From assembly GCA_017621815.1 (NCBI GenBank), contig JAGASK010000018.1:1-64000 (forward strand): a stretch of 64,000 nt of DNA, read 5' to 3'. A program made the translations under genes and the position numbers. The first letter of the stretch is position 1. Each line of letters opens with the position of its first letter. Below, one piece after another: positions 41,618 through 45,514 of this stretch. The notes beneath the pieces were generated by a model that did no database searches, was not told the origin of the DNA, and worked only from the letters and a program-made list of their open reading frames with translations. Source of the DNA: Lachnospiraceae bacterium (GTDB taxonomy: Bacteria; Bacillota; Clostridia; Lachnospirales; Lachnospiraceae).

Positions 41618-42454
41618 CTATTTTAAGGCTTCCTCATACAATACTTTATCAACATCTTTAAATACATTAAAAATAATCCTGTCAAAATCCGATGCATATT
41701 TTTTCAAAAAAGCTGTCACTGTTTCTACCGCAATCCCGGCAGCCTCAGCATTCGGAAAATGAAATTCCCCCGTGCTGATGCAGCAAAACGCAACAGAACG
41801 GATTTCATGCTCCACACAGCATTTCAGTACATTTCCATAGCAATTCCGTAAATCCTGCCTGAGTGCATCGTTCAGGCTCCTTCCCACAATAGGGCCTACG
41901 GTATGTATAACATATTGTGCCGGCAGATTATATCCTTTCGTCAGCACAGCCTGCCCTGTAGGTTCTTCATATTGTGAACCATACTGCATTTTCCTGCGGT
42001 TCATGTAATGACTGCACTCCTCCCTGAGCTGAACACCTGCCGCGCTGTGAATAGCGTTGTCAATACAGCGGTGACAGGGTACAAAGCATCCGAGCATCCG
42101 GGAATTAGCCGCATTTACAACGGCGCCCGCCTGAAGCCTTGTTATATCCCCCTGCCAGACAGAGATTTTATCCCCAAAAGGATGTCTGCTTCCATACTGC
42201 TCTGCCACAGTCGGCACGTCCTCCGGAAAGACAATTCCCTTTTCTTTCGCTTCTTCAGTCAGAAATTCATTCTGTATTTTTATCACATTTTCCTGCATGT
42301 GCCCGGGCATTCGGATATTCATAAGGGAGCGGAAGGCCATTCTTTTTTCTTCATAGCCTTTCCCCACTTCCAAATCCTTATATTGCACAGAATCTTCCTT
42401 AAATTCTTTCAACAGAAAATCAAGTCTTTCTTCCTGCTTTTTGTTCCGCGTCAT
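41618..42454 (-). CDS. Zinc-type macrodomain protein (ADP-ribosyl hydrolase, MacroD-like)
   Basis: A 278-residue macrodomain enzyme of the type found beside class M sirtuins (SpyMacroD/SauMacro). An N-terminal helical part (AFRSLMNIRMPGHM) precedes the macrodomain: SVWQGDITRLQAGAVVNAAN, the zinc-binding loop GCFVPCHRCIDNAIHSAAG and VIHTVGPIVG, then FCCISTGEFHFPN. In characterised relatives it removes ADP-ribose from a lipoylated GcvH-like carrier protein. Its usual partner SirTM is present as a pseudogene 1.6 kb away, separated by an ATPase gene; no GcvH-L or lipoate ligase gene is seen. It overlaps the preceding small ORF by 4 bases. Confidence 0.92.
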   Translation of the reverse strand: MTRNKKQEERLDFLLKEFKEDSVQYKDLEVGKGYEEKRMAFRSLMNIRMPGHMQENVIKIQNEFLTEEAKEKGIVFPEDVPTVAEQYGSRHPFGDKISVWQGDITRLQAGAVVNAANSRMLGCFVPCHRCIDNAIHSAAGVQLREECSHYMNRRKMQYGSQYEEPTGQAVLTKGYNLPAQYVIHTVGPIVGRSLNDALRQDLRNCYGNVLKCCVEHEIRSVAFCCISTGEFHFPNAEAAGIAVETVTAFLKKYASDFDRIIFNVFKDVDKVLYEEALK

Positions 42455-42669
42455 TTTTTCATCCTTTCCGCTATATCTTCTATGCTCTTAGCAATATCTT
42501 CATTGATGCCCACAGCCCTTTTTCCCATGCTTTCCGGCACAACAGCCTCTTCCAGATTCAGGCGCACTAAAGACCAGTCTGCATTATCATACAGCATTTG
42601 TTCAAATGGAAAACGAATGATCGTCGGGGTGTTACGTTTATTGCGCACCATTTTTATGATGAACTCCAT
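42451..42669 (-). CDS. Small hypothetical protein
   Basis: A 72-residue frame (or 66 from ATG 42651, which has GGAG 11 bases upstream). It contains RNKRNTPTIIRFPFEQML and ends in an acidic/basic helix KSIEDIAERMKK. It overlaps the macrodomain start (ATGA) and begins one base after the ATPase stop codon, so it is probably translated with its neighbours. No family recognised; it could be a remnant of a larger gene. Confidence 0.5.
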   Translation of the reverse strand: MEFIIKMVRNKRNTPTIIRFPFEQMLYDNADWSLVRLNLEEAVVPESMGKRAVGINEDIAKSIEDIAERMKK

Positions 42670-42670
42670 A

Positions 42671-43924
42671 TCAAAATTCTAAACTGTCTGAATTCAGAAG
42701 GAAATATTTCATTCCCATAATAACAAAGCCATCATCATTTCTCCACGGTTTTGCCGTTCCGTTTACAATTATTATTTTTTTAAAGGAATCCGGAATACTG
42801 CGTAATGAATAAAATTCCTGTATCTGCTTTTCCTTTGATGTTATATTATAGGCGACCTGAATATAATACCTTTGGTTTCCCTGATTGACTACAAAATCAA
42901 CCTCAAGATGCTTCCGAACACGCTTTCCCGCTTTATCTTTTCCATACACATCTATAATACCCGTGTCTACATTATATCCGCGAATAAGCAATTCATTGTA
43001 AACAATATTTTCAATTATATGGGGTGCTTCCTGTTGTCGGAAATTTAGTCTTGCGTTTCTAAGCCCCATATCTGTGAAATAGTATTTCAGATTAGCACCA
43101 ATATATTTTCTACCTTTAATATCATAGCGATTGGATTTTGAAATCAAAAATGCTTCCTCAAGATAATCAATATGTCTGGATATCGTTTTATTGGTATATC
43201 CAGTCCTGCGTTCACTTAAGAAAGTATTTGAAATCTTTGTAGGATTCGTTGGTGCTCCAATGGCAGAAGCAAGAATGTCAACCAATGTACTTAACTCATC
43301 TGTATTTTGGATGTGATTTCTTTCAATTACATCTTTCAAATATACATTTGTAAAAATATTTTTTAAATATTCTGTTTTTTGGCGTTCTGTCTGAAAACCA
43401 GCAACTTGCGGCAAACCTCCATAAATCATATAATCATTCCAGGCGTTATCATACTCTCCCTCATAAACAGAAAAATATTCTGCAAAAGAGAGAGGATACA
43501 TTCTGACTTCGTCTCCTCTTCCCCGAAATTCTGTTACAATATCACTGGACAAAAATCTGGAGTTACTTCCGGTTACATATACATCAATTTGGCTCATGCG
43601 AAGCAAACTATTCAGCACTTCCTCAAACCGAGGCATGAATTGTACCTCATCCAGAAGTAGATAGTAGCGTTTATCATCCTTTATGAAATCTTTGATATAC
43701 TGATAACATATTCGGGGATTTCTTAATTCTTCATTTTCAATACCATCCAAAGCGATTTCAATGATATGATCCTCGTTTATACCATTTTCCATTAGATACT
43801 TTTTAAATATACGGAAAAGTAAAAAAGACTTCCCGCATCTTCGCACACCCGTAACAATCTTTATCATTCCATTGTCTTTTTTCAGGATTAGCTGCTGAAG
43901 ATAAGTATTTCTTTTTATTTCCAT
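42671..43924 (-). CDS. AAA ATPase of the DUF4143 family
   Basis: A 417-residue AAA_14/DUF4143 ATPase. Walker A is VTGVRRCGKSFLL, Walker B YYLLLDEVQFM, sensor region VTGSNSRFLSSDIVTEFRGR. The C-terminal DUF4143 part is a restriction-like fold (LEVDFVVNQGNQRYYIQVAY). Such proteins are common, patchily distributed and of unknown function. It lies between the macrodomain and the sirtuin remnant and probably was inserted there, because these two are adjacent in most genomes that carry them. Its 5' region is AT-rich. Confidence 0.88.
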   Translation of the reverse strand: MEIKRNTYLQQLILKKDNGMIKIVTGVRRCGKSFLLFRIFKKYLMENGINEDHIIEIALDGIENEELRNPRICYQYIKDFIKDDKRYYLLLDEVQFMPRFEEVLNSLLRMSQIDVYVTGSNSRFLSSDIVTEFRGRGDEVRMYPLSFAEYFSVYEGEYDNAWNDYMIYGGLPQVAGFQTERQKTEYLKNIFTNVYLKDVIERNHIQNTDELSTLVDILASAIGAPTNPTKISNTFLSERRTGYTNKTISRHIDYLEEAFLISKSNRYDIKGRKYIGANLKYYFTDMGLRNARLNFRQQEAPHIIENIVYNELLIRGYNVDTGIIDVYGKDKAGKRVRKHLEVDFVVNQGNQRYYIQVAYNITSKEKQIQEFYSLRSIPDSFKKIIIVNGTAKPWRNDDGFVIMGMKYFLLNSDSLEF

Positions 43925-44067
43925 TTAATCACTCCTTGAATTCGTGCAATACACAATTTTTAGTAATTCAATTATACTATAAAAACAACCCTTCTTCAAC
44001 CAGATATTCCTATTTTATGTGCATTTGCACATTTTTATGTAATCAAATTTGGCAAAATCTGAATCTG

Positions 44068-44734
44068 TTATTTTTTTAAACAAATTTGTTGTAATATCTC
44101 GCCAAGATCTCCGTTAATACAGATGGAACGTTCCGCAATTTCTTTTGGAGCGTAAGCTTCGCCAAGATTGATGCAGACATAGACGGTCTTTGAATTTTGA
44201 TAGGCCTGCTGCCAAAAATTATACTTTATAATACCGGGGGTGTTAAATCCCACGCCCAATTCCAGTAATACTACCTTGTCTTTTTTATGTTCTTTTAAGA
44301 AAGCAGTGTAACGGCATGCCGCTTCATTCCAGTGTTCATCTTCTACAAAATACTGGTCGCACCGAAGGTGCATTGCCATATCTTTACCGCAGACAGGACA
44401 TTTCGGAACCATATAAGAGGGAATCAGGCAATCCTTTATCCACGTTGGTTGTTAAAACAAAATGCGGCTTTTCATTGACCAATGCATACAATTCACGGTA
44501 AAGTAAAAGTGCATCCGGTTCAATCCCGTTTAACCATACATGCTTCGACCAATATCCCCATTTTGCTTCTTCTGTGGGAAAAGGATAAAACCCGGCGCTA
44601 TACATATCACTCATGTACGCAGAACCGTATTTTTCAATAAATTCTCCGAAATTATCCGTAAATCGCTTTCCGCCGTAAGTCAACCCTGCTGCCGCAGATA
44701 ATCCTGCCCCTGCTCCTATCACAACAATTACCAT
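44068..44734 (-). pseudogene. Class M sirtuin (SirTM), internally deleted
   Basis: The N-terminal piece (from ATG 44734) has the NAD-binding motif VIVVIGAGAGLSAAAGLTYGG then GFYPFPTEEAKWGYWSK and FVLTTNVD, as in SirTM protein ADP-ribosyltransferases. It ends in a stop 13 codons later. The C-terminal piece, in another frame, starts CLIPSYMVPKCPVCGKDM (second zinc pair) and runs through YFVEDEHW, LLELGVGFNTPGIIKY to 44068. The segment between TTNVD and the second cysteine pair, about 60 residues including the catalytic histidine (TTNVDH) and first zinc pair, is missing. Activity is impossible. Confidence 0.85.
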
Positions 44735-44755: not shown

Positions 44756-45514
44756 TTTACCGTTATCATTCTGCCAGTAAAAGGTATCTCCCTTACAGAA
44801 GAAGGGAAATACCTTTATGAGCATTTTAACCCGCTGGTAACGGAATTCCATAATACGATGAGTCAGACTGTCTCCTATTTTGAGAACAAGCCGAGGAAAT
44901 TATCATTTGCCTGTGCACCGTTGATTTTTTGGGTTTTGAATCCGGAACTTCTCTTATCTTTTCAGGACGCCAATCCCTGGATTTCACTGGATATGATAGA
45001 ATTAGCAGATGCTGACTGTGATTCTTATGTCCTTGCAGACGAAAAACATTTTGGATTACTTGCCATTCCCAAAAACAGACATGGGGAACGTCTTGATTAT
45101 ATACCTGTCAAAACACTCCCCCTATATTTATATGTCCACAAAGATAATCCTTTGGCAAAACAGAAGTCCGTGAATTTTGGTATGTTAAAAAATGAAAATT
45201 TTTTAATGATGGATAAAAAATCCTATTACAGAAAGGTAATCTACTCCCATTCCAAACCATATGGCTATAAACCTGCACCTGCATATGAATCATCAGATGT
45301 AAATCAGATTTGCAGTTTAGTAAATTCAGGAAAGGGCATTTTTCTTGCAGTCAAAAATCCGGCGGCAAACGCTTTGTTTAAAAATGTGGTTATGGTTCCC
45401 TTTGATGAATCCACATTGACTTACAGCATTGCTTTCATTTTTCAGGATTATGATAAACTGGAGCCGCCTGCAAAGAAATTCATGGAATATATTCTAAAAA
45501 ATTCGAATTCATAA
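44756..45514 (+). pseudogene. LysR regulator lacking its DNA-binding domain
   Basis: From 44756 the plus strand encodes the end of a LysR N-terminal domain (GISLTEEGKYLYEHFNPLV) and a complete effector-binding domain (RKLSFACAPLIFWVLNPELL, LPLYLYVHKDNPLA, VNSGKGIFLAVKNP). About 55 residues with the winged helix are absent, and an in-frame stop at 44753 closes the frame. An ATG at 44858 (MSQTVSYF) could start a truncated protein without DNA binding. The break lies 20 bases from the sirtuin start, so one deletion may have damaged both. Confidence 0.75.

Follow-up and report, generated by a model that had tools for sequence, protein, structure and literature searches.

We analysed a 64,000-nt stretch of the Lachnospiraceae bacterium assembly GCA_017621815.1 (contig JAGASK010000018.1, positions 1 to 64,000; hereafter the window), in which a class M sirtuin (SirTM) gene in pieces and a zinc-type macrodomain gene lie on the minus strand between 41618 and 44734. 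This is very probably a SirTM-macrodomain locus in which a small site-specific integrative cassette has docked in the SirTM gene, the DNA presumably being joined by a serine recombinase. The sequences show this arrangement elsewhere too, chiefly in Clostridia, with cargo that varies and units that can be stacked. A unit consists of a SirTM 3' end, one cargo gene and a right-end motif, and lies in SirTM at Asn-Thr-Pro; the host gene thereby continues into the 3' end that the unit supplies, and its original 3' end is displaced downstream.

An earlier reading of the window (the original prediction) held that a DUF4143 ATPase gene separates the SirTM pieces from the macrodomain, and the ORF (open reading frame) at 42671-43924(-) is indeed AAA_14 plus DUF4143 by Pfam. 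From 44734 downward, the minus-strand gene order is the SirTM 5' part, a break, the SirTM 3' part, the DUF4143 ATPase, a 72-aa ORF and the zinc-type macrodomain:

44245..44734, minus strand: 5' part of the host SirTM, assigned to clade A, broken by a net 140-nt deletion and a frameshift next to 44437
44068..44244, minus strand: insert-borne SirTM 3' end, clade-B-like by its identity to the clades, NTPGIIKYNFWQQ... to the stop, 58 codons
42628..44238, minus strand: putative inserted unit of 1611 bp, bounded by the CC dinucleotides of two Pro codons, where the crossover is presumed
42671..43924, minus strand: predicted cargo gene, AAA_14/DUF4143 ATPase of 417 aa (Pfam AAA_14 and DUF4143; PADLOC candidate defence family PDC-S01)
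42628..42650, minus strand: right-end motif of the putative insert, 23 bp, TGGTGCGCAATAAACGTAACACC, which recurs behind other inserts
42451..42633, minus strand: displaced 3' end of the original clade-A SirTM, NTPTIIRFPFEQ... to the stop, within the 72-aa ORF 42451-42669 and against the macrodomain start
41618..42454, minus strand: zinc-type macrodomain (protein-ADP-ribose hydrolase), intact, the presumed original partner gene of the invaded SirTM

The SirTM pieces 44384-44734(-) and 44068-44412(-) are out of frame with each other, in agreement with the predicted decay of this gene, and each matches the solved SirTM chains 5a3a_A and 8rsn_A. We compared the pieces with SirTMs from the genus and order, which form a clade A (the neighbours of this macrodomain type, n=8) and a clade B (n=16). 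Mean identity to clades A and B is 70.6% and 52.1% for the N-terminal part and 74.8% and 53.2% for the C-terminal part before Asn-Thr-Pro. From Asn-Thr-Pro onward, the corresponding values are 31.4% and 54.9% in ORF 44068-44412, and 58.7% and 35.5% in the small 72-aa ORF. Both the third SirTM piece, in ORF 42451-42669(-), and the chimeric nature of the piece 44068-44412(-) were absent from the original prediction. By this switch of clade in the mean identities, the gene is a clade-A SirTM that was cut at Asn-Thr-Pro and is continued by a clade-B-like end, its own end having been left 1.6 kb downstream against the macrodomain. The displaced end sits where clade-A SirTM genes usually end, and several clade-A relatives have SirTM and macrodomain side by side.

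As read in the assembly, the window SirTM has 16 nt where loci L065, L067 and L070 have 156 nt, a net deletion of 140 nt, which may be real or an assembly error; QGDYG and the first Cys pair are gone from the gene, and its frame is shifted. The predicted internal loss, with the disappearance of the first Cys pair, is thus present in the assembly, at about 47 residues and not 60. The accompanying claim that the catalytic histidine had been lost fails, since SirTMs have Gln where other sirtuins have the catalytic His, according to the available part of PMC4518038. In the order of events that we infer, the 1.61-kb unit entered at Asn-Thr-Pro, the chimeric SirTM then lost 140 nt and became a pseudogene, and the macrodomain stayed.

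The right-end motif is diagnostic. A looser exact pattern gave 4 matches in 3 of 37 genus genomes, and with one mismatch allowed there were 9 matches in 7 of 397 family genomes, while the reversed control gave 0 in both searches. An exact scan of 84,980 species genomes returned 37 copies at 36 loci, nearly all of them in Clostridia. Behind 34 of the 37 copies lies a displaced SirTM 3' end, and in 31 it begins exactly at +17 of the motif, at Asn-Thr-Pro (E<=0.01), with four of these matches short at 18-32 residues (L165, L170, L178, L189). The pattern itself ends with the six bases of the Asn-Thr codons, which are thus imposed; the homology behind them is not. The SirTM 3' end begins a few bases after the expected start in L162 and L184, and in L182 it lies beyond the locus edge and is visible on the same contig as L152. 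Upstream of the motif, 17 of the 37 copies have a SirTM gene or part of one as counted from the listings (fragments only in L162, L165, L167 and L170), and 14 have too little upstream DNA to judge. At L162, with its motif at 1602, the core ACACCCCGGGGATTATT is tandemly repeated at the motif end, like the footprint of a second event.

Seen from the side of the dock, there are 16 SirTM sites in which ELGxGxNTP can be read and which are followed downstream by the motif, exact or degenerate; most of these sites entered the collection via the motif. The SirTM is open end to end at 13 of them (L080, L092, L093, L148, L150, L152, L158-L161, L189, L194, L199), incomplete near a contig end at L173, and broken at L170 and L177. 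These 13 ORFs remain open because each unit supplies its own last ~54 codons. Among the 27 sites gathered independently of the motif (L063-L098), where some contigs are short, 3 have the motif within 6 kb (L080, L092, L093); at L095, a fragment of a displaced end lies 1.7 kb downstream with no motif. Units stand in series at L093, L148/L191 and L189. From Asn-Thr-Pro to the motif, the units measure about 0.3-1.9 kb and mostly hold one gene. L150, on the contig of L178, looks like an internal deletion of a cassette: the leader of the ATPase is still present (91% over 44 bp), as is, judged by eye, the end of the ATPase.

A unit outside SirTM is found on G025:C50 (L155, a longer view of L164), where the first codons of an Uma2 gene hold a SirTM 3' end, the motif and, between them, an ATPase with 82% identity to that of the window. 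The SirTM end upstream of this motif is the unit's own, and because the whole unit sits in the Uma2 gene, the SirTM end is part of what travels. We saw no uninterrupted copy of this Uma2 gene elsewhere, so the empty site is a reconstruction. A parallel to the window occurs on G030:C4, with an ATPase (53% identity), a degenerate motif and a short SirTM stub directly before a macrodomain; no SirTM 5' part remains there. Near-identical DNA (ATAGTGAAATTTTCTTTCTGG) opens the SirTM 3' ends that read GIVK(F/Y)SFW in L092, L093, L094, L155, L186 and L193/L194, which come from different genomes, and the codons are variable elsewhere. This fixed DNA may be the constant half of an attachment site.

The cargo before the motif falls into several families. 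Among the 37 copies, it is a DUF4143 ATPase in 16 (L168 and L192 being called from 32-33 residues at a contig end), an AlbA_2/HATPase_c_4 protein of the Schlafen/AlbA_2 type in 11 (L167 at 25% identity and confirmed by Pfam, L180 called from 37 residues), an AbiE component in 2, a MazE/ParE-like pair in 1 and a serine recombinase C-terminus in 2. None was identified in the other 5 (L162, L171, which has no upstream DNA, L172, L178 and L187). The MazE-like/ParE-like pair of L161 is on the opposite strand, and cargo otherwise mostly runs in the direction of SirTM. L151, outside the 37 named copies, has an AbiEi/AbiEii pair. Of the cargo examined with PADLOC, four ATPases were assigned to PDC-S01 and the AbiE genes to AbiE, which makes them candidate defence genes by profile. 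Three cassette ATPases (window, L166, L165) share a C-terminal nuclease-like signature, (E/D)(V/I)DF...IQ(V/S)(A/S). PD-(D/E)XK nucleases have Lys at the signature position, and the signature as found suggests that the nuclease-like site of these three ATPases is dead. We also considered whether DUF4143 ATPases at large are cassettes, and this was ruled out by a flank-duplication test of 31 DUF4143 ATPase loci: a SirTM duplication was found in the window (L104) alone, L127 paired two ATPases, L110 and L130 had intergenic repeats, L106, L109 and L125 were weak, and 24 gave nothing.

The window unit carries the ATPase only and has no integrase gene of its own. Evidence for the type of enzyme involved comes from three other units. 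L179 and L190 each carry a gene that stops immediately ahead of the motif and encodes the DUF4368 end of a large serine recombinase. L199 holds a relative (70% identity), flanked on one side by a complete SirTM and on the other by a degenerate motif followed by a displaced end. All three pieces stop no more than ~40 bp from the motif, and each time a displaced SirTM end follows it. The search found such a recombinase in 1 of 397 family genomes at E<=1e-30. At E<=1e-25, the 392 order genomes yielded 20 DUF4368 matches, spread over 14 genomes, and only that of G258 adjoins SirTM. In viral contigs, plasmids and phages no close relative was found, identities reaching at most 43.5% among the matches listed. 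Carriage by phages or plasmids was set aside on three grounds: the exact scan found no motif in viral contigs, the four inspected of 30 plasmid or phage records with ATPase relatives were motif-free, and the recombinase has no close relatives there among the matches listed.

The codons at the two junctions fit a two-base crossover. Both junctions share the CC of the Pro codon, and those in the Uma2 gene, of which the empty site was not seen, also fit CC. At the left junction of the 16 docks, the Thr codon, counted by eye, is ACC in 12, ACT in 2, ACA in 1 and ACG in 1, while at the right end it is ACC by the pattern used. ACC is found at the left junction in 12 of 16 occupied and 7 of 24 empty docks (Fisher p=0.009), a comparison of by-eye counts in related, non-independent sequences that carries little weight. 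We would expect a DUF4368-type large serine recombinase to join the DNA at this CC, with SirTM as attB, and most cassettes, which lack the enzyme, to be moved in trans.

The original prediction regarded the macrodomain as intact, and this is borne out. ORF 41618-42454(-) matches Pfam Macro at E=6.9e-36 and scores 289.2 bits against the NCBIfam protein-ADP-ribose hydrolase NF003163, above the cut-off of 272. Set against 33 homologous ORFs, to which the same locus contributes some, the macrodomain has the zinc-site residues usual for its clade, and departures from columns conserved in at least 90% occur at residues 5, 18 and 64, none of them in the zinc site. The sequence PCHRCID appeared unusual and was taken up as a possible sign of decay, yet it is typical of the clade. 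Among the 60 genomes searched, 14 contain a macrodomain match of some kind but none to the SirTM N-terminal part. Two of these 14, which show no SirTM match at all, are G008 (given as 100% complete) and G004 (86%); in each, an open macrodomain is >60% identical to that of the window, and solitary zinc macrodomains therefore exist in the genus. Macrodomains near that of the window and without an adjacent SirTM match are found at L062 (G019), L066 (G004), L068 (G001:C6), L071 (G008), L072 (G029) and L073 (G028), and the genes upstream of them are mostly unrelated.

In the genome of the window, a macrodomain kept as an eraser without its writer, as had been proposed, does not apply. A second SirTM on contig C40 (G000:C40) is open and full-length at 288 aa, with QGDYG and both Cys pairs present by eye. 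The idea of a free macrodomain thus remains viable in other genomes and does not hold for this one. Behind the C40 SirTM, a motif with one mismatch follows at 214 bp, and the DNA between them matches the leader of an AlbA_2 cassette (88% over 93 bp to L194); no displaced SirTM end was found behind this motif. Because of the leader match and the one-mismatch motif, we suggest that the C40 SirTM was probably a dock too, whose AlbA_2-type cargo is gone. The original prediction had pointed to a lipoylated carrier and proposed a search for GcvH-L, which returned neither GcvH nor GcvH-L in this genome (91.55% complete; the control was found in 13 of 14). Since no GcvH of any kind was found in this one genome at that completeness, a lipoyl-carrier role is unlikely for this module. 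A minimal pair of SirTM and zinc macrodomain without GcvH-L is a known arrangement, as far as the available parts of PMC4518038 and PMC11490716 describe it. The window differs from it in that its SirTM is chimeric and broken and no GcvH of any kind was found in the genome.

Other explanations were weighed against this reading. Under the original prediction, SirTM simply decayed, the ATPase inserted by chance and the freed macrodomain serves another ADP-ribosyltransferase. The broken SirTM beside an intact macrodomain fits this, as do the 14 genomes with a macrodomain and no SirTM match, in two of which the macrodomain is a close open relative of that in the window. We nevertheless consider it very unlikely: the displaced 3' end, the chimeric junction and the end motif point to targeted insertion, the genome has an intact second SirTM, and the ATPase, far from being a chance neighbour, is the cargo of a site-specific insert replacing the SirTM 3' end, a pattern found in other genomes. 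In another alternative, the donor was a SirTM locus with an ATPase already downstream of it, and homologous gene conversion would need no site-specific enzyme. SirTM genes do have conserved DNA near ELGVGxNTPGII, and arrays with repeated 3' ends should recombine readily. Yet the displaced ends begin at the same codons in 31 of 37 copies and are not spread over the gene; the motif is also conserved across cargo types and genera, and one unit lies inside an Uma2 gene without SirTM homology, all of which makes gene conversion improbable. Much the same low probability attaches to a single functional defence operon of SirTM with the ATPase, AlbA_2 or AbiE genes, in which the repeated 3' ends would be by-products of duplication. 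Its attraction is that the cargo is repeatedly defence- or toxin-antitoxin-like and mostly oriented as SirTM is. Against it, 24 of the 27 docks gathered without the motif have none within 6 kb (some contigs being short), the cargo comes from several unrelated families and the L161 pair runs opposite. Integron-like or other tyrosine-recombinase cassettes, in which the motif would be an attC-like or Xer-like site, are somewhat easier to entertain and still unlikely. They would explain units of mostly one gene, the fixed 3'-end motif and the serial stacking at one dock, and the first bases of the motif appear to resemble the XerC arm of the E. coli dif site. On the other hand, a serine recombinase ends beside the motif in three units, and integron cassettes, unlike these units, are not known to carry a long piece of the dock gene.

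Several observations weigh against a serine-recombinase cassette docked in SirTM. Two copies, L172 and L187 (in an EamA gene), lie at sites where no SirTM sequence is visible; with L164 (in the Uma2 gene), they are the 3 of 37 copies that have no displaced SirTM end behind them. In L166, L174 and L184, which have ~5 kb or more of upstream DNA, the displaced end is present and there is no SirTM upstream. Most loci are metagenome-assembled genomes; Petralouisia muris NM01_1-7b and Dorea sp. 5-2, two carriers from the exact scan, are not marked as such. Among 8 genus loci (L104-L111) with an ATPase at least 78% identical to that of the window, the motif stands behind the ATPase only in the window and L109. 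The 4 examined of 30 plasmid or phage records with an ATPase relative lack the motif, and their best hint of a SirTM end is one unconvincing match of 31 residues (E=0.001). The ATPase is thus not bound to the cassette form. In no cassette did we see a complete recombinase gene, the three C-terminal pieces being cut by contig ends in two cases and decayed in one, and none was found in the window's own genome at E<=1e-25. The other 19 DUF4368 matches (<=49% identity), which have short flanks, show no motif and one weak SirTM-end match (L214, 35 residues, E=0.006). No circular form, excision or transfer was observed.

The proposed cassette has counterparts among known elements. In E. coli K-12, the e14 prophage enters icd near its 3' end, restores the frame with its own last 54 residues and displaces the old end, as described in the accessible part of PMC11148124. 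Here too the dock gene continues into the element's own 3' end (about 54-60 codons) and the old end is displaced downstream, and e14 in icd, so far as that account goes, is a clean precedent for swapping ~54 C-terminal residues of a host gene. In contrast to e14, a prophage with its own integrase, the units here are of ~0.3-1.9 kb, mostly single-gene, usually without a recombinase and stackable, and their host gene is SirTM. Staphylococcal cassette chromosome (SCC) elements use Ccr large serine recombinases, dock at the 3' end of the conserved gene rlmH and stack in tandem; they are tens of kb long and carry ccr genes, whereas the units here are small and replace ~54 codons. Integron gene cassettes have one gene per unit, a conserved 3'-end site and serial insertion at a fixed dock. 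The dock here lies inside a working protein gene, and each unit has a copy of the 3' end of that gene. The DUF4368 clade of large serine recombinases is described as multi-targeting in PMC10083194, whose main text contains neither Sir2 nor sirtuin. The same recombinase type stands at the end of three units here, and by contrast 34 of 37 motif copies are at one gene. We found no description of SirTM as a dock among the open-licence PubMed Central (PMC) papers that our searches listed.

A wider proposal, on which we are evenly divided, is that the class M sirtuin gene serves gut Clostridia as a chromosomal docking platform, serine-recombinase-driven and integron-like. Single-gene defence or toxin-antitoxin cassettes would enter at Asn-Thr-Pro, and since each supplies an extra sirtuin C-terminus, the ADP-ribosylating enzyme would outlast every round while the older cassettes shift downstream into arrays. 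An apparently decayed operon would then belong to a general pattern, with SirTM as a capture site for small defence-like genes, and a recombination system would be building arrays of mostly single-gene units while the host enzyme stays whole. The 23-bp tag retrieves such cassettes, and hence candidate defence or toxin-antitoxin genes, through pattern search alone. The last ~54 residues of some SirTMs are foreign, which matters for trees, structures and the co-evolution of the pair.

Two other regions are of further interest. On L147 (G244:C8), ~3.2 kb beyond the motif copy in an EamA gene, an ORF presumably resembling a serine recombinase N-terminus is found with a sigma-factor-like ORF at the contig end. 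Beside the broken SirTM start in the window, the gene at 44858-45514(+) resembles what we take to be a LysR-type substrate-binding domain without the DNA-binding part, possibly truncated in the same rearrangement.

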